Shown here: positions 44,634-53,052 of the stretch, piece by piece
Numbering within the stretch: position 1 is the stretch's first letter
Layout of the letters: every line of letters begins with the position of its first letter
Source: Parietichytrium sp. I65-24A
Taxonomy: Eukaryota > Sar > Bigyra > Thraustochytrida > Thraustochytriidae
DNA length: 64,000 nucleotides
Direction of reading: 5' to 3'
Assembly: GCA_012862575.1 (NCBI GenBank)
Contig: BLSF01000056.1
Coordinates: forward strand, 62,001 to 126,000
Notes under the pieces: generated by a model
The model's input: only the letters and a program-made list of their open reading frames with translations
Databases searched by the model: none
Told to the model about the DNA's origin: nothing
Made by a program: the position numbers and the translations under genes

Positions 44634-46710
44634 CAGTGAGTGAGTTGTATATGTCCTCAGCTCCTCCGAGTGAATGTGAAGAATGTGAAGAATGTGAAGA
44701 ACTCGGAAAGTTTGGTCGCTTTTTTTGGTTTTTGTTTTCATTTTTTTAAAATGCTGCCTCCGCACAAGTCAGGCGCCCTCACAAACCGCCTCTGCCGGGC
44801 AACAGCTGCGCCGTAGGAGTGTGTTACCTGCGATAGGACCTCGGGTAGGTTTGCTCAGCCTCTCCTCCGGCATTGAGAGGGAGGCAGGATTTCGCTCCGG
44901 TTACTTTGTGAGGGGCTTCTGCCTCGCCCTCACAGCCCCGCCCGGCCCCCTCTCAGCTCGCGTCTCTAACCACGACTCCTCTAGCCACCCCTACCCTAAT
45001 ATAGCACTCCTTAATAACGTCACACGGACTCTTAGTATAGGACGGTATTAACGATGGATAAGAACCCGGTGGAGTAAGAGTTGGTTATGCGGAGGTAGAC
45101 CCGCTGGAGTAGGGGTGAATAGGGGGCTGGTAAGAATAACTTCCGGGCATTGCCCAACTGCAAAACGCCTGAATTTCTGAGATCTGAGTTCTGAAATTCT
45201 GTTCAAAAATGAAAAGTTCTCCTGATTTCTGTGCATTTGTGAATGTAAATTTGGTTTGGAGTTTGGTAACTTTTTTCGAGGGAAGGAAGGGAAGGAATGG
45301 AAGTAGCGAAAGTTGTGAGCAATAGGTCGTGCAAGAAACTTTGGACCATGCGGAAAACAAAAAGCCTGAGAGCTGAGCTGATGTTGTCTTTCAACAAGCA
45401 TAGCATGTTCAGTGGTGCTCGGAGAGAGGGAGACGAAGAAACGCACGCGTTCACTGTCAAGTTGGTGAACAATCATGATCGCGCGGAAATGGGCGGAAAG
45501 GCATGCAAAAGCAAGATACCAGTACCCTGCGATATTGCGTTGTTGCGTTGTTGCTTTACGTGAAAGGAGAGGGCGGAGGTGAACTTTAGCTTGCGTGGGG
45601 ATCGCAGTATCGATCGTCACTCTGCCTCCGAATTGCGGAGGACGTCGTGCGCAGATGTACGTTGTCGAAAATTGGAGGTGATGGATGTGGGCGGCTTTCA
45701 TGTGCGGAAGATGAAGGATTTCGTTACATTCTGTCGCTTTTGGTTTGTTGTTTTGTAAGGCATGAGAGAAGATCTAAGATCTTGCGAAGGGAGCAAGAGG
45801 AGGAGGTAGATAGAAGATCATCAGGTGCGATGTAACTTCCTGAATTTCAGAGGCTCTGCGCTGGTTCCTCGAGGAAAGGACGAAGGTGGAGAGGAACAAT
45901 GCGACGAAAGGCAATTTGGCTCTTCTGCGTCCTCTGTTTCGCAAAGCTTTGAACGTTTTGCCCGGTGTGCCTCGAAAGTGACCTAAACCCAATCATCCGC
46001 CCACTTGGAAGCAGCCGGTCAGTAGCTCTCCAAGCGAGAGCAACATGCTCTCAGAAATAAGCAGTTTCGTATTCACAGTCAGAAGGGCAATGGCATCCTG
46101 GCTCATGAATGATCCCGGGCAACTGCTGTCCGTCCACTTCACAAGAGCTCCGAATTCAGGAAGTTCAGACAACCTTTATTTTGGGCAATCCCCTTCAAAA
46201 TGTGGGCCGCCGCGAGGAGGAGGATAGCGCCAACGCATGTGCGTTTCGCCGGGAGCGATGGGGAGGGGGAGAATCTCCTTCGGTTTCGTTTCGCTACAAG
46301 ACCACCATCGATGGCATGCAGAGCAGAGTTTCCGGGACCTACTGGCCCCGAGTAATGATCCCCAGAAATCCCCTGACCAAACTGGTTGCCCTGACGTTTT
46401 CCGAAGAAGGAGGGGAGGAGGGAGGGAGGGCCAGCGAAGTTTCAACCTGAAATCAGGGAGAACGGGAAAAGAGCAGACGTGCGCATTTGAGAGCTATTTC
46501 CCCATTTCATCTATTTCATCTTTTCATCATAACAATGAGCTCGGAAACTGCCTCTGCAGACTGATGTTCTAGCATGTCCAGCCTTCCCCGACTAGGTGGT
46601 CGGTTTTTGTAACGTCTTGGTTGCCTCTCTTGTGCTACGTTTTATGAATTACCGGCCAGGAACTCTGGCAACCAGCTGGTACAGCTGGATGAACATCTTA
46701 GCGGGAATCA
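43799..46710. other. Intergenic, no gene seen
   Basis: 2.9 kb between the polo kinase and the first permuted tRNA. It includes a (CTTT)n run at 44559-44580, a (GATT)n run at 44603-44633 and AATGTGAAG nonamers near 44670-44700. Open frames, the longest 217 codons on the minus strand at 45048-45701, look random in composition and carry no domain. Confidence 0.5.
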
Positions 46711-46800
46711 GGGAAAGGTCCTGGGTTCGAGTCCCAGCTCGGGTACATTAGTTATACAATTAGCCCGTGTAGTGTAGTGGATATCACGTTCCCCTCCTAA
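46711..46800 (+). tRNA. Permuted tRNA-Arg(CCU), copy 1
   Basis: The 3' half (46711-46745) lies upstream of the 5' half (46763-46800), with 17 nt between them. Joined in biological order they give a 73-nt cloverleaf. The 5' acceptor strand GCCCGTG pairs with CTCGGGT (six of seven positions, with G1.U72 and one U.U). The D arm GTGT/TCAC (one U.U) has loop AGTGGATA. Anticodon stem TTCCC pairs perfectly with GGGAA around loop CTCCTAA, anticodon CCU. The variable region is AGGTC and the T arm is CTGGG/CCCAG with loop TTCGAGT. The discriminator is A73 and CCA is not encoded. U8, A14, G18G19, the G15-C48 pair and the arginine identity bases A20 and C35 are present. The split falls between positions 38 and 39. 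The B box precedes the A box. Maturation would need circularisation or BHB splicing followed by removal of the spacer, as for known permuted tRNAs. Confidence 0.93.
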
Positions 46801-46813
46801 GCTTAGTTCTTTC

Positions 46814-46820
46814 TTTTTTT
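46814..46820 (+). terminator. Pol III T-run after tRNA copy 1
   Basis: Seven consecutive T residues begin 14 nt downstream of the 5' half, as expected for RNA polymerase III termination. The position implies that the transcript includes a short 3' flank, which is needed to form the splice helix. Confidence 0.75.
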
Positions 46821-47330
46821 ATTTTGTTGTTTGTTTCGCTGTCCAATGGATGCAATACGATTCACTTTTGGATTTATTTTTATTGGTTTTGACGAGACAC
46901 CATTGAGGTCAATCACATGCACGCTTGATGCACGTCGGCAGTGAGCTCTGAATGAGATTTTGCGCTTTAGTTCGAAATGGCTTCAGGAATGCAATTCAAA
47001 GGCCGAAGTGGCCGAAGTTCGTTGGATTGGGGCCCTCGCATTTCGCATTTCGCAGTATTCGCAGCTCGCAGCTCTCTCAACTTGCATTTCGCCTTCGCAT
47101 TTATTCGCATTTCGCTTTACACGCTTTACATCGCTTTACACGCTTTACGCAGTATTCGCAGTATTCGCAGCTCGCATTTAGCACATTTTAGCACTCCACA
47201 TCACAGGACATCCATGCACGTCCACTCATGTCCACTCATGTCCTTTGCAGAGAACGAGGCAAGCCTTTTTTTGGCGCCTGGTCTCGACGCGGACATTGTG
47301 AAACGATTGGCGAGTTGCCAGCAGGAATCA
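46821..47330. repeat. Spacer with TTCGCA-rich repeats
   Basis: 510 bases between the two permuted tRNA genes. From about 47030 to 47190 it is built of short imperfect repeats of TTCGCA, GCATTTCGC, CAGTATTCGCAG and CGCTTTACA. No gene is seen. The flanks of the two tRNA genes are not otherwise duplicated, so the pair is not simply one long recent tandem repeat. Confidence 0.65.
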
Positions 47331-47419
47331 GGGAAAGGTCCTGGGTTCGAGTCCCAGCTCGGGTATATGACTTACTAATCAGCCCGTGTAGTGTAGTGGA
47401 TATCACGTTCCCCTCCTAA
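47331..47419 (+). tRNA. Permuted tRNA-Arg(CCU), copy 2
   Basis: A second permuted gene of the same isoacceptor, exactly 620 bp downstream. The 3' half is 47331-47365, the spacer is 16 nt (47366-47381) and the 5' half is 47382-47419. Both halves are identical to copy 1, so the mature tRNA is the same 73 nt with anticodon CCU. The spacer and the outer flanks differ from copy 1, apart from a shared AGC(G/A)GGAATCA immediately before the 3' half. Upstream -8 to -5 (AGGA) can pair with anticodon-loop bases 33-36 (TCCT). In copy 1 the equivalent is GGGA, so the T36 pair changes from G.U to A-U. Preservation of both halves and of the pairing argues for function rather than a pseudogene. Confidence 0.93.
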
Positions 47420-47434
47420 TCTACAGTTCACTTC

Positions 47435-47441
47435 TTTTTTT
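47435..47441 (+). terminator. Pol III T-run after tRNA copy 2
   Basis: Seven T residues start 16 nt after the 5' half, matching the arrangement of copy 1 and supporting independent Pol III transcription of each gene. Confidence 0.75.
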
Positions 47442-48808
47442 CGTTTTTGTTCTCCTGACTGACGCTCACAGCAAATCAGACAAAGAAAGAGCTTGAGACA
47501 TGTCGCAGCTGATGAAAGTATCGAGGGACGAGGGATGGGCCAAGCAGCCAAACAGCCAAGCGCTCGAACCGGCTCAACTTTATCTCCTTCCACCAACCAC
47601 AAACTGACAATTCGGCGCGCAAAAAAAGCAAAGTGCAAAGTGCAAGCCCTTGAAAGCCTGAAGTACGTACATACTACGACGCTAAGCAGCCAGTTGAGAC
47701 TGACTGACAGGACTGTCGCGGAGGCATGAAGAAAGTCACGACAGGAACAAGAACGACAACAACAATGACGAACTTCACCCGAGTCTAACCTCAGCTTCTC
47801 GGGCATTTCACTTCGTCCATCATGATTGCAAAACCTATGCCGGTACTCACTGTCATCTCGTTCGCCGGCTCTTCGCCTCTTCCTCTGCTGTCTCTTCGTG
47901 TGGCCCACGCACGCCGCCATCTTGTTTGCTGTTGGATGCTGCAGGATGCTGCAGGCCCACCTCTTCTGTGATTTCTTAGATTGACGAAAGTGCTTGACTG
48001 TTCAGAAATGTTCAGAATTGCTTTTTGTTTTGTTCAGAGATTTAGAAATTAGAAGAATTTTTCAGAGTTCAGCGTTCGAGCTGAAGACATGTTCGCGATT
48101 CACGTAGTTCATGGCTACAGTACAGGTAAGTACACTTAGTGCAAATAGGTAAGACGTCCACCCCTTCTTGCGTGCGAGGTTCTCCTGGGAAGATGAAGAT
48201 GAAGTTCAAGATTAAGATCCTGTCCGTCTCAGCTGCCAAACAACCTTTCTTTTTTAATTGTTAGAATCATATGTTTACGAAAACAAGTGTAAATGTAAAT
48301 AAATATTTTTAAATCGAGCGCCATGAAAAGCAACAATTCATAACAAATAACAAAATTCACATTATTTTAAAGAAGAACAGCACTGCCTGTGAGCCCACAT
48401 GCCCACATGCCCACATACCCCACAGAACCCGACCCAGCACCTCTCATCATAGTAGTTTACCGTAGCGAGGCATATGCCGCCCCTGGTCGTCTCTCTGTCT
48501 CCTTTCTCTCCTTTCTTCTCTCTTCTCTCATTTCCCTCCTCTGTTGTGAGTGGCACAAGTGGTATAAGTGGCACAAGTGAGTGTCCGCCACCACAGACAG
48601 CAGCTACGAAGAGCGAGTTAGGTGTAGGTGCGGGGACTCCGGAGGGCTCAAAGAGAGCGCTGCGCGCGGGGGCATAGGGGTGTAGGGGGCAACTAGACGG
48701 AGACGGAGCGCTGTGGTGGGATTGCTTTTATTGGTCAGCGTGCCCAGGGTGTGAGGGACCACTGAACTAGGTGTATATCCGCGTTGCAGAGATAAATTGC
48801 CGACGGAA
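47442..48808. other. Intergenic, no gene seen
   Basis: 1.37 kb. A minus-strand ATG at 47918-47920 opens a short basic reading frame that soon meets a donor-like GTGAGT, but no convincing following exon was found. A 6-bp hairpin lies at 48068-48085. The end of the region should contain the promoter of the coiled-coil gene. Confidence 0.45.
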
Positions 48809-50083
48809 ATGGAGAATCCGTCGGCTTTGCTGAGGAAGGCAAAGACGGACGAGGCTCTGGCTCAGGAAATTTTATCTGGTGGCCTGAATCCGTTATTGCA
48901 CAGCGTTGGCAGGGTTTCACTGGAGGAGCTGCGCAAACACGGGGACGACGAAGAGGACGAGGTCATTACGAAGATCAAAATGCTTTTAACTAGCGCACTA
49001 GACTCCGGCCAGCTGCGGTCTTTAACGCGAGCGATCGTGTTGGCATGGCAAGCAGACTATGATTCGGAGACCTTGAGACTGGCCGAGTCCAAGCTTATTC
49101 GTAAGGCGAGAGAGACGCAGCTAGGCAAGGACTTTAAAAGTGCCATGGAGCAGCGCAGCCGCGTACAGCTTCAGGAGTGCTTCAAAATTGCGTCCGACCT
49201 TTCCCTTACCGAGTCGCACTTTCCTATTCTCGCGGAGGCGCGCGCTCTTGATAAGGAGCTCGAGCAGGAAGCCACTAATTTGCAAGATGCAGCTCGCCCA
49301 GCTTTCACAGAAAGGTTTGGCAAAGTCATCGAGCAGATCTCGCAAAATATCTTTGGTGTTGATATCGTCAAGCTTCAGGAAGAGGTGGAGGCTGCTTCTG
49401 TGGCAGCCAAAGCAGATATGGAATTGTTTAACGAGAGGCTTCAGGCCTCGCTGGCTCAATACAGAGACACGAAAGACAAACCCACGAGCTCTGAAAAGCT
49501 CACCGAGCTGGAGAGCTTGAAGGAGGCGTTTAAAGTGCTGAATCCAAAATCCTTGGAGACACAAGTTCAGAATCTCCGCGACCAGCTCCAAGAGATTCAG
49601 GCAGAAAACGCGGAGCTCCTGCTTGAGTTGCGCGCAGAGAGCGCCAAGCCGCCTGCCATGTCTGCCGAGGGCTTGGAAGAGCTTGAGCACCTGAGAGCCC
49701 GAGTGCTCGAGTTAGAACAGAATGAGGAGGAGTTGCACGAAAGGATCGACGCCGCCGCCAAGGTAGGGGCGCGGTGGATGGAGGAGAAGAAGGATAAGGA
49801 GCTCGCCGAACTACGAGATTCACTGGATGAATCCATACAGGCAATGAGGGCCCAAATTAAAGCCGAGGTGGAAAGTGAGTTCAAGCGAAAGAGCATGGAA
49901 CTTGTTTCAGCCGAGAAAAAGATGAAGGTCCAAGCTCTTGAGGGACTTGAGCAGGCTCTGAAGAAAACTCATCAAAGCGAGATCCGGAATATGGAAGCTG
50001 AATTAAACGATCTTCGAGAGCGTCTCAATGTCGCGGAGAGAAGAATCGCGTCACAGGACAAAGCCATCAAGCTTCGCGGGTAA
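48809..50083 (+). CDS. Coiled-coil protein of unrecognised family, copy 1
   Basis: A 424-residue, highly charged protein. The N-terminal 150 residues form a compact helical segment that starts NPSALLRKAKTDEALAQEIL and contains LTSALDSGQLRSLTRAIVLA. The rest is mostly long coiled coil, with LRARVLELEQNEEELHERID and VGARWMEEKKDKELAEL. A paralogue follows 1.7 kb downstream on the same strand with the same order of segments. I recognise no named family, signal peptide or membrane helix. A structural or scaffolding role is the natural guess but only inference. The frame begins four codons earlier at a TTG; ATG at 48809 is chosen because it aligns with the paralogue's start. Confidence 0.75.
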   Translation: MENPSALLRKAKTDEALAQEILSGGLNPLLHSVGRVSLEELRKHGDDEEDEVITKIKMLLTSALDSGQLRSLTRAIVLAWQADYDSETLRLAESKLIRKARETQLGKDFKSAMEQRSRVQLQECFKIASDLSLTESHFPILAEARALDKELEQEATNLQDAARPAFTERFGKVIEQISQNIFGVDIVKLQEEVEAASVAAKADMELFNERLQASLAQYRDTKDKPTSSEKLTELESLKEAFKVLNPKSLETQVQNLRDQLQEIQAENAELLLELRAESAKPPAMSAEGLEELEHLRARVLELEQNEEELHERIDAAAKVGARWMEEKKDKELAELRDSLDESIQAMRAQIKAEVESEFKRKSMELVSAEKKMKVQALEGLEQALKKTHQSEIRNMEAELNDLRERLNVAERRIASQDKAIKLRG

Positions 50084-51822
50084 TGTAATCTTTTATTCTC
50101 CCTTGCTTGCTTCGACAATTGTCCATACAACTTTGCTTTCTGATCCTCTTTTTTTTTTACTAGCTCTACACCCTTACACGTCCTCTGGGTTCACATGATA
50201 GCCCAGTTGTGGTTATTTTTTTTCGTCGCGAAAAGCTCACAAAGTCTCATCGCGAGATGATTATAAAAACAAAAAGACAAAATAAAGACAAGTTGAGAAG
50301 AATATTTTGTTCATGAACAGGAGAACCCCCACGTATCTGTAGCGGGTACCGGCACCGGTACCAGTATCGAATTCTCCGACCCGAAGCATGACAAATTTCC
50401 AAAGGACACAAAATGCATTCCGCGAGATTGGCAGGCATAGCAGAAACGAGAATCTCCAAAGCTTTCGTTTCGACTCGGCATCTGAAGCACACTAAAGCTG
50501 CTCTATCATCCGCCGCTACTCGCCGACTGTATTTTGCATTCTTCGCCATTCTCACAATCTCGCCTGCTTCTTCTGCCTACCGTACTCGCCATCGATAGTG
50601 GAACTGAGTAGTAGCCGTAGGGACCGTAACGGTAACTTAGCCAAACGGCACTCTTTGGGAGACAAGTGTAGCTGCTAGCATCCCTCTTCAGAATTCAGAG
50701 TTTGATCGAGAACAAGATGGGTTTTATGAGCCATAAAAGGAACGCGGATGACGAATGAACCAATCTGCGATCGGCCATTGGTTGGCATCGCGGCTCCGAA
50801 AAGGAAAGAAGGAACGAAGGAAGGAAGGAACGAAGGAAGGCTGCCATCAAAATGCATCCTATCGATCTCTGTCTGAAATCGCCCATCCGATCCCGTTTCG
50901 CTCCAATGCTGGGAGACGCCGTGCTCGTAAACTGTAGCGCAGACATGGTGCGCTGCAAGAAAAGGCGTCACGGTTCGTTCATCCCTGCTAAACGAATGCC
51001 TACGATGCACGTTTGCAAAGTCTCGGGAGCGATAGAAAGCCGAGCGGGCCAAAGTTTGTAGACGTTGGCAGAGCTGCTTTTCATCAGCAGAGACAGCTTG
51101 ATTCCTTCGAGATAGCCCCACGCATATATGATTGTCGAGTATGCTAAGTTCACTCGCAGGGTTGGAAAGGTAAATAAAGAAAAGAGAAGCTTGCTTTTTA
51201 CAAAAAAACTTTAAGCCTGGGGGGTACTTTGTACGCTCATATTATGGAAGGTTATACTGCTTACAGCTATTGATTGCTTTTGCTACCTTTTGCGTCCAAG
51301 GACAAGATTTTTTAACGTGTTGTTTATTAAGACTAAATTTTGGCCACTATTAGCCGAATCGGAGACCCCGGTAGATGTGCTCATTGAGACTGAATACCTC
51401 ATTTCCATAGAGGACATGTCTCGCTACCTTCGTGACCACCGGACTTCATAACCCCTTGCAAGTACATCATCGCCCGGGCTTGGTACAAATCGCACCGCTT
51501 CGACATAGCCAACGAACAACGAACAGTACTCTGCCATTTGCGCCCGATACCCCCCTCTTTTCAACCTGTGCAAATGTTTACAATGTGTGCCTTGGGACAT
51601 TCGAGTTGGAGTTGGTTGATTTCATTCATTCATTCATTCATTCTTCCTTCATTCATTTGTTCAACCAATGAACATGAACGATTGACTGTCAATTGAAACA
51701 TTCTGATCAGAGCGAGCAAGCGAAGAGCGGCTGTAGAGAGACGAGCGCGGGGCAAGTAAGCAGAGCAGAGAGCAGAGAGAAGAGCAGAGCAGAGCAGAGC
51801 AGGGTTGAAAGAGAAGGGCAAG
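50084..51822. other. Intergenic between coiled-coil paralogues
   Basis: 1.74 kb without a supportable gene. It includes a T-rich stretch after 50140, GGAA-type repeats near 50800-50840, ATTC repeats near 51627-51658 and GAGCA repeats just before the next gene. Confidence 0.5.
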
Positions 51823-53052
51823 ATGAGAGAAAACGCATCTGCCCTCCTGCGGAGCGCAAAGACGGACGACGAGCTCGCGGAACTCATCATCAATGGCGGC
51901 CTGAACCCCTCGCAGCGAGCCGCGGTCGCGCGCGACGAGAGCAAAGAGATGGACGTTGGCGTCGTAGACAGTATTGAGACCCTGCTCAAATCCGCGTTGG
52001 AGACAGGACACCTCAAGTCGCTTGCGCGAGGGGTTGCATTAGCATGGCAGGTCGGGTACACCTCCGAGCTGGTCTCGCGGGCTGAGCCGCGCATGGTCAA
52101 AAAGGCGCAGGAAGCCTTTCTGGCTCGCGACCTCAAGGCCGCTATGGAGAGCAAGAATGCACTTGCATTGTATGGCTGCTTTGAAGTTGCCAAGGAGCTC
52201 GGGGTGGACGAAAAGTCTATGGCTATTTTACATGCCGCCAAGGAAATGCACTCCCAACTCGAAGAGGAGGAGCAGAAGAAGCGCGATGCTGCTCGCCCAA
52301 CACACAACAAAATGTTTGGTTCTGTTATCGATGAGATCAGAGGAAACATCTATGGAGAGGACTTCAAAGCAGTGAACGAGGCGATCGAGTCCGAGACTGT
52401 CTCCGCACGCAGAGCAATCGTGTCGCGTCTCACTTCGCTAGATGACAAAGTCCAGCAGTTCAAGTCCATGGGCAAGAAGCGGAACAGCTTCGGAAAACTC
52501 AACGAATTGAAGGATCTGGAGCAAGAGCTTCAAAGAATCAATCCTTCTCGTCAGGACGAGAAAATCGACGAGTTGCGACGACAGCTTGACGAATTGCGCG
52601 GCGAAAATGCAGAACTTCGCATCAACATCAAGGAGTCAAATGACGACGCGGAGGAAATTGCACGCCTCCGCGCCAAAGTTGCGGAGCTCGAACAAAATGA
52701 AGAAGTTCTTCGAGCCAATATCGAAGCTGCTGCACAAGTCGGAGCACAGTGGATGGAAGAAAAGAAGGACAAGGAGATGGAAGAACTCCGAGTCTCCGTA
52801 GAGGAGTACTCCGAGACTCTCAGGGCACAGGTTCGCGAAGAAGTGGAAAAGGAGTGGAGCGCAAAGTGTGCGGAAATGCTTCAAAAAGAGCGCAAAATGA
52901 AAGTTGTCGCGTTGGAGGGAATGGAGATGGCACTCAAGAAGCGCGGTCAGGCAGAGATTGCTCAGCTCAAGGAAGCTCATGTTCGCGAAATAAAGGCGCT
53001 CAAGGACCAACTCATAGCCGCAACAAACTCAGTTCGCATTTTGACGTGCTGA
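51823..53052 (+). CDS. Coiled-coil protein of unrecognised family, copy 2
   Basis: A 409-residue paralogue of the gene at 48809. The shared N-terminal helical segment reads NASALLRSAKTDDELAELII, GGLNPSQRA and LLKSALETGHLKSLARGVAL. The centre keeps RDAARP...FGSVIDEIRGNIYGEDF, and the coiled coil keeps LRAKVAELEQNEEVLRANIE and VGAQWMEEKKDKEMEEL. Conservation is strongest in these blocks and weak in the linker, as expected for an old duplication under constraint. There is no membrane helix or known catalytic motif. The open frame extends six codons upstream from a TTG within purine repeats. ATG at 51823 is the first ATG and aligns with copy 1. The C-terminus ends with a Cys. Confidence 0.77.
   Translation: MRENASALLRSAKTDDELAELIINGGLNPSQRAAVARDESKEMDVGVVDSIETLLKSALETGHLKSLARGVALAWQVGYTSELVSRAEPRMVKKAQEAFLARDLKAAMESKNALALYGCFEVAKELGVDEKSMAILHAAKEMHSQLEEEEQKKRDAARPTHNKMFGSVIDEIRGNIYGEDFKAVNEAIESETVSARRAIVSRLTSLDDKVQQFKSMGKKRNSFGKLNELKDLEQELQRINPSRQDEKIDELRRQLDELRGENAELRINIKESNDDAEEIARLRAKVAELEQNEEVLRANIEAAAQVGAQWMEEKKDKEMEELRVSVEEYSETLRAQVREEVEKEWSAKCAEMLQKERKMKVVALEGMEMALKKRGQAEIAQLKEAHVREIKALKDQLIAATNSVRILTC

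Follow-up and report, generated by a model that had tools for sequence, protein, structure and literature searches.

Two tRNA-Arg(CCU) sequences with their halves in swapped order

In the window (the whole 64-kb stretch of DNA that was analysed), positions 46710-46799 begin (read 5′ to 3′) with 36 nt of a tRNA 3′ half (tRNA positions 38-73), go on with a spacer of 17 nt and end with the 5′ half of the same tRNA (37 nt, positions 1-37). The same order of halves occurs once more 620 bp downstream, at 47330-47418; we refer to the two as copy 1 and copy 2. The preliminary description had reported a single permuted tRNA-Arg(CCU) gene at 46711..46800, with the 3′ half 17 nt upstream of the 5′ half. 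The sequence is as it was described and the swapped order of the halves is confirmed, best placed at 46710-46799; the second copy had been overlooked. The parts of the two copies are as follows.

46710..46745, + strand: copy 1, 3′ half, tRNA-Arg(CCU) positions 38-73 (from the sequence, ARAGORN on the joined halves and the held-out covariance model)
46746..46762, + strand: copy 1, intervening sequence of 17 nt between the mature tRNA 3′ end and 5′ end
46763..46799, + strand: copy 1, 5′ half, positions 1-37 (A46800 is an alternative position 38)
47330..47365, + strand: copy 2, 3′ half, tRNA-Arg(CCU) positions 38-73 (from BLAST, the sequence and the held-out covariance model)
47366..47381, + strand: copy 2, intervening sequence of 16 nt
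47382..47418, + strand: copy 2, 5′ half, positions 1-37 (from BLAST, the sequence and the held-out covariance model)

ARAGORN identifies the 73 nt formed by the halves, joined in the order 5′ + 3′, as a tRNA-Arg whose anticodon is CCT. The conserved bases are present by position (U8, A14, G15-C48, G18G19, A20, U33, C35, UUC 54-56 and A73), so that U8, R15-Y48, G18G19, U33 and U54U55C56 of a complete tRNA are all found. Earlier this had been called a canonical cloverleaf; that holds for the T stem and the anticodon stem (each paired 5/5), for the G15-C48 pair and for A20 and C35, but the acceptor stem is imperfect, with a U6.U67 mismatch and G1.U72, and the fourth pair of the D stem is U.U. The order is that of type II permuted genes: the 3′ half lies upstream, and a short sequence (17 and 16 nt) links the acceptor ends.

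Standard scans, as run here, overlooked or mis-joined both genes. Neither ARAGORN with default settings nor Rfam at the gathering threshold listed a tRNA in the window, while ARAGORN, with introns of up to 3 kb allowed, made one gene at 46763-47365 out of the 5′ half of copy 1 and the 3′ half of copy 2. That a standard scan would miss or break the gene had been foreseen in the preliminary description.

The joined tRNA was compared by BLAST with the genome (42.5 Mb in 172 contigs). There were four matches, all within the window, and these were the halves of copies 1 and 2. The tRNA bases of the two copies do not differ at any position (0/73), while their spacers differ in both length (17 versus 16 nt) and sequence. 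We compared the flanks in ungapped blocks of ten, 60 nt each way. In the last 10 nt of the leader (within 46700-46710 in copy 1) 9/10 positions are alike; beyond −10 the likeness falls to 2-3/10 per block, at or near chance. The trailers agree at 2-6/10 positions per 10-nt block, values raised by T runs. So sharply bounded an identity points to selection on the tRNA and the short leader; the alternative would be gene conversion confined to exactly these stretches. An exact search with 32 nt of the 5′ half in collections of genome contigs and of viral contigs gave no match.

Two further features of the neighbourhood were seen. Imperfect repeats of the TTCGCATTTCGC type lie between the two permuted genes, at 47035-47198 of the window. 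Tandem open reading frames at 48755-50083 and 51760-53052 appear, by eye, to have similar N-terminal sequences and coiled-coil-like C-terminal parts, and are likely paralogues.

Splice junction, leader and transcription signals

Next to the halves lie the following features.

46671..46679, + strand: ACCAGCTGG, which may be a Pol III promoter element upstream of copy 1; the sole ACCANNTGG in the 64-kb window
46700..46709, + strand: leader element of copy 1, AGCGGGAATC; in the anticodon loop, U36-U33 are possible partners of 46703-46706
46814..46820, + strand: T7 run, presumed Pol III terminator of copy 1
47320..47329, + strand: leader element of copy 2, AGCAGGAATC; at −7 it has A in place of G, which could still pair with U36
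47435..47441, + strand: T7 run, presumed Pol III terminator of copy 2

The join of the halves can be read as 37/38 or 38/39 in both copies, and as 39/40 in copy 1 only: in the interval 46711..46800 the 5′ half ends with A46800, and the base just before the 3′ half, 46710, is A as well. The junction is best placed at the canonical 37/38, where it fits the leader pairing; this replaces the join at 38/39 proposed earlier. Counted back from a cut before position 38, the possible pairs in both copies are U36:−7, C35:−6, C34:−5 and U33:−4, and at −7 the G of copy 1 and the A of copy 2 each match U36.

The same four pairs, in the same register, are possible in ordinary introns of this genome: in all nine tRNA-Gly(GCC) introns (9/9) and in that of one presumed tRNA-Arg(CCG). 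The tRNA-Gly(GCC) introns are 12-13 nt long in 9/9 copies of the fetched loci (L046, L053, L056, L057 and L059), with one variable intron position. The probable tRNA-Arg(CCG), at 219-303 of locus L074 (C6:109.7k), has a 13-nt intron at 37/38 and is named Trp by ARAGORN. Position 32:−3 is paired in tRNA-Gly(GCC) and in neither tRNA-Arg; in the permuted gene it is C.A, not a standard pair. Four pairs of four would arise by chance in ∼2% of cases, and so the weight of the observation rests on the agreement with the ordinary introns and on conservation between the copies. If formed, the leader pairing would be a relaxed hBH form like that described for green-algal permuted tRNAs in the review by Soma (PMC3978253).

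Free folding lends little support to such a structure. Compared with shuffled sequences the pre-tRNAs show no extra stability (z of 0.39 and 0.63). At one chosen pair of ends the minimum free energy (MFE) structure of both copies contains the anticodon stem together with the leader helix. When 42 sets of ends were folded for each copy, the two occurred together in 1/42 for copy 1 and 7/42 for copy 2, and in another folded stretch of copy 2 the MFE structure did not combine them. The target structure has −22.1 kcal/mol versus MFE values of −26.4 and −25.5 kcal/mol, i.e. it lies 3-4 kcal/mol above the minimum. In the folds the GGGAA of the copy 1 leader itself can compete for the anticodon stem.

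As to transcription, the motif ACCANNTGG precedes copy 1, with its start 39 nt ahead of the 3′ half. Among 81 ordinary tRNA genes of the fetched loci it is present within 80 nt upstream of 27, downstream of one (1/81) and in the reversed form at three (3/81), and in 25 of the 27 motif-bearing genes its start lies 10-29 nt before the tRNA. The gap is longer in copy 1 and provides space for the leader. Since the motif was first noticed in a listing that included the upstream stretch of copy 1, these counts are descriptive, and more weight belongs to the finding of just one site in the 64 kb. The 81 genes are ARAGORN calls. Tandem copies of a single species make up many of them, and at least one call is doubtful (a Lys inside a Glu array), so that they do not count as 81 independent cases. 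Upstream of copy 2 the motif is absent, as it is in 54/81 ordinary genes. In front of ordinary tRNA genes (loci L009-L067) ACCANNTGG often takes the form AACCAAGTGGT or AACCAGCTGGT; it may be an upstream Pol III element specific to this lineage.

Downstream, a T7 run follows the 5′ half of each copy and there is no T4 inside copy 1 or copy 2. Thus, a terminator-like signal stands after the 5′ half and none between the halves, with an upstream motif in copy 1 only. A run of T4 or more is present within 30 nt downstream of 75/81 ordinary tRNA genes in the fetched loci.

Searches of the genome and the splicing machinery

A search that allows for permuted tRNAs had been proposed as a check on the gene, and we carried it out with a covariance model (R2) made of nine ordinary tRNAs of the same genome, cut at 37/38, with the halves swapped and the spacer set to N. 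The model was built without any tRNA-Arg(CCU) to avoid circularity. The set searched consisted of the window and 28 loci round B-box matches (104 kb), followed by 43 more loci; loci L001-L024, L036-L039 and L100-L115 lay outside the set. In the window and the 28 loci copy 1 scored 70.8 bits (E-value 1e-21 in 104 kb) and copy 2 scored 66.0 bits (E-value 4.6e-20), while the next of the 21 matches in the 104 kb had 26.1 bits and fell on an ordinary tRNA. The best score in the 43 further loci, 28.6 bits, was again at an ordinary tRNA. Thus, in the window and 71 loci the model found no permuted gene beyond the two copies. A sister model (R1) was trained with copy 1, and its scores of 95.9 and 86.7 bits were left out as evidence. 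R1 also gave 47-74 bits at eight places that are tandem runs of like ordinary tRNA genes; unlike at those eight, no ordinary gene supplies the halves at either permuted copy.

The survey for further permuted genes covered T arms that fit two B-box patterns and permutations at 37/38; the patterns were sought in the genome and the surroundings of the matches checked. The pattern GGTTCGANTCCC occurs at 62 places: one mitochondrial, two in the permuted copies, 46 in ordinary tRNAs (16 + 30) and 13 with no tRNA, where the T stem is incomplete. The pattern GGTTCRAATCC occurs at 53 places, of which 13 are mitochondrial and seven had been examined already. The remaining 33, in 32 loci, comprise three in ordinary tRNAs and 30 with no ARAGORN tRNA. 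Three of these 30 places (L076, L094 and L099) have a fully paired T stem and could be degenerate or unusual tRNA genes; on inspection no tRNA could be made of L099.

An ordinary tRNA-Arg(CCU) gene elsewhere in the genome had been named beforehand as an observation that would speak against the permuted gene. By BLAST of the joined tRNA, only the two permuted copies were found in the genome. We also used two patterns, both of which require TCCTRA in the anticodon loop and a T loop of the standard kind. The pattern that allows for a short intron (TCCTRA, gap of 8-38, GGTTCRANYC) matched at 11 places versus 14 and 16 in reversed-pattern controls; the one for genes with no intron (TCCTRA, gap of 12-16, GTTCRANYC) also matched at 11 places, versus 4 and 4 in its controls. 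The 22 matches represent 21 distinct places in 20 loci, and ARAGORN found a tRNA in none of the loci (0/20). By the two patterns and the BLAST search, then, no ordinary tRNA-Arg(CCU) was found in the assembly. In the genome search with the Rfam tRNA model (RF00005) 63 of 1347 candidates were scored, so that the list of ordinary tRNAs from it is incomplete and cannot alone prove the absence of Arg(CCU). A reader of AGG is needed, as AGG makes up 94/558 Arg codons in 14 long open reading frames of the window. An ordinary tRNA-Arg(UCU) was found in the genome; it could read AGG by wobble, and therefore the permuted gene need not be essential.

We looked for the enzymes that would splice such a transcript. 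The endonuclease family PF01974 has three matches in the genome, one on contig C90 and two pieces on contig C11. The C90 frame is Sen2-like: in a search of PDB sequences it matched archaeal EndA (5x89, 5e-12) and Sen2 (8iss_B, 1.4e-7). The first C11 piece matched Sen34 (7zrz, 2.7e-8) and the second is below the family cut-off; we take the two pieces for one Sen34-like gene. The genome gave no match for the RtcB ligase, with a control positive in 9/14 genomes, and none for PF09511 (tRNA ligase), for which the control was likewise silent.

The host is a thraustochytrid, i.e. a labyrinthulomycete stramenopile, and thraustochytrids are non-photosynthetic. Among the 63 scored of the 1347 candidates we saw no plastid-like cluster of mixed tRNAs apart from contig C141 (39.3 kb), which is mitochondrial. 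ARAGORN found 21 tRNAs on the four pieces of this contig, and some of its frames we take by eye to be nad7, nad9, cob, cox1, rpl6 and rps4. Parts of nad7 and cox1 are, again by eye, repeated, and there is a 5.1-kb run of N. In 29 frames of at least 130 codons on one strand of C141, some of them partial or repeated, TTA accounts for 18/7025 codons as against 420 TTG, at 32% GC, and 17/18 TTA codons lie before the first Met or within the last 11 codons. No tRNA-Leu(UAA) is present among the 21 tRNAs. Thus, TTA is all but absent inside the genes of C141, which is consistent with TTA being a stop. The mitochondrial code that bears the name of Thraustochytrium (NCBI table 23) uses TTA as a stop. 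In Schizochytrium sp. TIO1101 the mitochondrial stops are TAA, TGA or TTA and there are likewise 21 mitochondrial tRNAs (PMC7799850).

Interpretation and comparison with known permuted tRNA genes

A permuted tRNA-Arg(CCU) gene, as proposed in the preliminary description, is by a wide margin the best-supported reading, given two copies with an identical tRNA, a conserved leader, the upstream motif of copy 1 and the T7 runs. We infer that the two copies are very probably working, tandem, circularly permuted genes of type II (37/38) that mature via a circular intermediate. Transcription would begin ahead of the 3′ half and stop at the T7 run that follows the 5′ half, giving a precursor with leader, 3′ half, spacer, 5′ half and trailer. 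The anticodon stem and the leader helix (RGGA with U33-C34-C35-U36) would draw the two ends close to each other to form a splice site, and a tRNA splicing endonuclease of the Sen2/Sen34 type would cut after 37 and before 38. A ligase would join the ends into a circular pre-tRNA, from which RNase P and RNase Z would remove the 16-17-nt spacer. With CCA added, the mature tRNA would read AGG codons.

One could think instead of an ordinary tRNA-Arg(CCU) gene with a long intron, extending from 46763 to 47365, with the orphan outer halves as the relic of a tandem array. This is exactly the call made by ARAGORN when long introns are allowed, and duplication of an intron-containing gene is, according to the review (PMC3978253), a likely origin of permuted genes. 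Still, the intron of ∼530 nt would hold T7 runs at 46814 and 47266 as well as six T4/T5 runs, all likely Pol III stops, while the ordinary introns measured here have 12-13 nt. Both outer halves are intact (0/73 differences), the leader element beside each 3′ half is conserved and so is the 16-17-nt spacing of the halves; we regard the long intron as improbable. Slightly less probable still is that the halves are non-functional fragments or pseudogenes left by rearrangement or retroposition, a view with which the missing motif of copy 2 and the lack of a stable pre-tRNA fold would agree. It would have to account for tRNA bases that stayed unchanged next to flanks that are unrecognisable, by the narrowly confined gene conversion mentioned above; moreover, BLAST of the genome found only two copies, and no other Arg(CCU) gene was found by BLAST and the two patterns.

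The least probable of the alternatives, one that we hardly credit, is a regulatory RNA that resembles tRNA and is akin to YrlA (bacterial Y RNA-like), in which a T-like arm precedes a D-like arm. A permissive search with Rfam RF02553 gave 24.0 bits (E-value 0.015) at 46688-46815 and 19.6 bits (E-value 0.28) at 47333-47410, scores far under the gathering cut-off of 69 bits for this family. The matches presumably arise since YrlA also has tRNA-like arms in swapped order. The sequences here make up a complete tRNA, anticodon stem and loop included, and reach 66-71 bits by the permuted-tRNA model; the host, besides, is a eukaryote.

If the two copies are permuted genes, their internal A and B boxes are in reversed order, and an upstream element could take the place of the boxes. 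A more specific proposal can then be made, to which we give slightly less than even credence: the two permuted genes would be the only source of tRNA-Arg(CCU) in this thraustochytrid, and they would be transcribed with the help of a lineage-specific ACCANNTGG Pol III element and not from the internal A/B boxes. Were this so, permuted genes could be expected to arise wherever upstream-driven transcription of tRNAs meets canonical 37/38 splicing, and permutation would be no algal or archaeal peculiarity. The motif also offers a testable account of the transcription of genes whose internal promoter boxes are reversed. Outside the tRNA and the short leader hardly any likeness between the two copies is left, and this makes them a natural experiment on the bases that the splicing machinery needs.

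Permuted tRNA genes were reviewed by Soma in 2014, with 34 genes from six algae and one archaeon (PMC3978253). Two more are described from the nucleomorph of Amorphochlora (PMC4494063), and others from Auxenochlorella, where they came to light once a standard scan had fallen short of a full set (PMC12636532); PMC13353863 only cites Soma 2007. In the literature searched, with subscription papers largely outside it, we found no report of a permuted tRNA gene from a stramenopile. A pair in a thraustochytrid would widen the range of permuted tRNA genes to a non-photosynthetic lineage and would favour independent origin.

The closest resemblance is to the type II (37/38) genes of Ostreococcus, Micromonas and chlorarachniophyte nucleomorphs, which likewise have the 3′ half first; their junction is at 37/38, the place that fits best here too (PMC3978253, PMC4494063). 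The spacer of 16-17 nt can be set beside the 5-64 bp of algal and nucleomorph type II genes (PMC3978253). A pairing of the leader with the anticodon, of the hBH type, is described for those genes, and one of this type would be possible in the present copies. The T stretch after the 5′ half is a feature that the review also states for C. merolae (PMC3978253).

Several traits set the present copies apart from the algal and nucleomorph type II genes. The tRNA is Arg(CCU), and Table 1 of the review has no type II Arg(CCT) (PMC3978253). Two neighbouring copies carry an identical tRNA, and the host is a non-photosynthetic stramenopile. The upstream motif of copy 1 is one that it has in common with ordinary tRNA genes of the same genome. 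C. merolae comes near in some of these respects: it has two permuted Gly(CCC) genes with the same mature tRNA, as here, and six type II genes. It has a permuted Arg(CCT) too, but this gene is of type IV (59/60) with an intron at 14/15, unlike the architecture seen here. In Auxenochlorella, as in our case, the standard scan missed the genes, and the host there is a green alga (PMC12636532). The thraustochytrid pair is best seen as two permuted genes of a known kind, in a lineage that is probably new, and the comparative evidence for their function is good.
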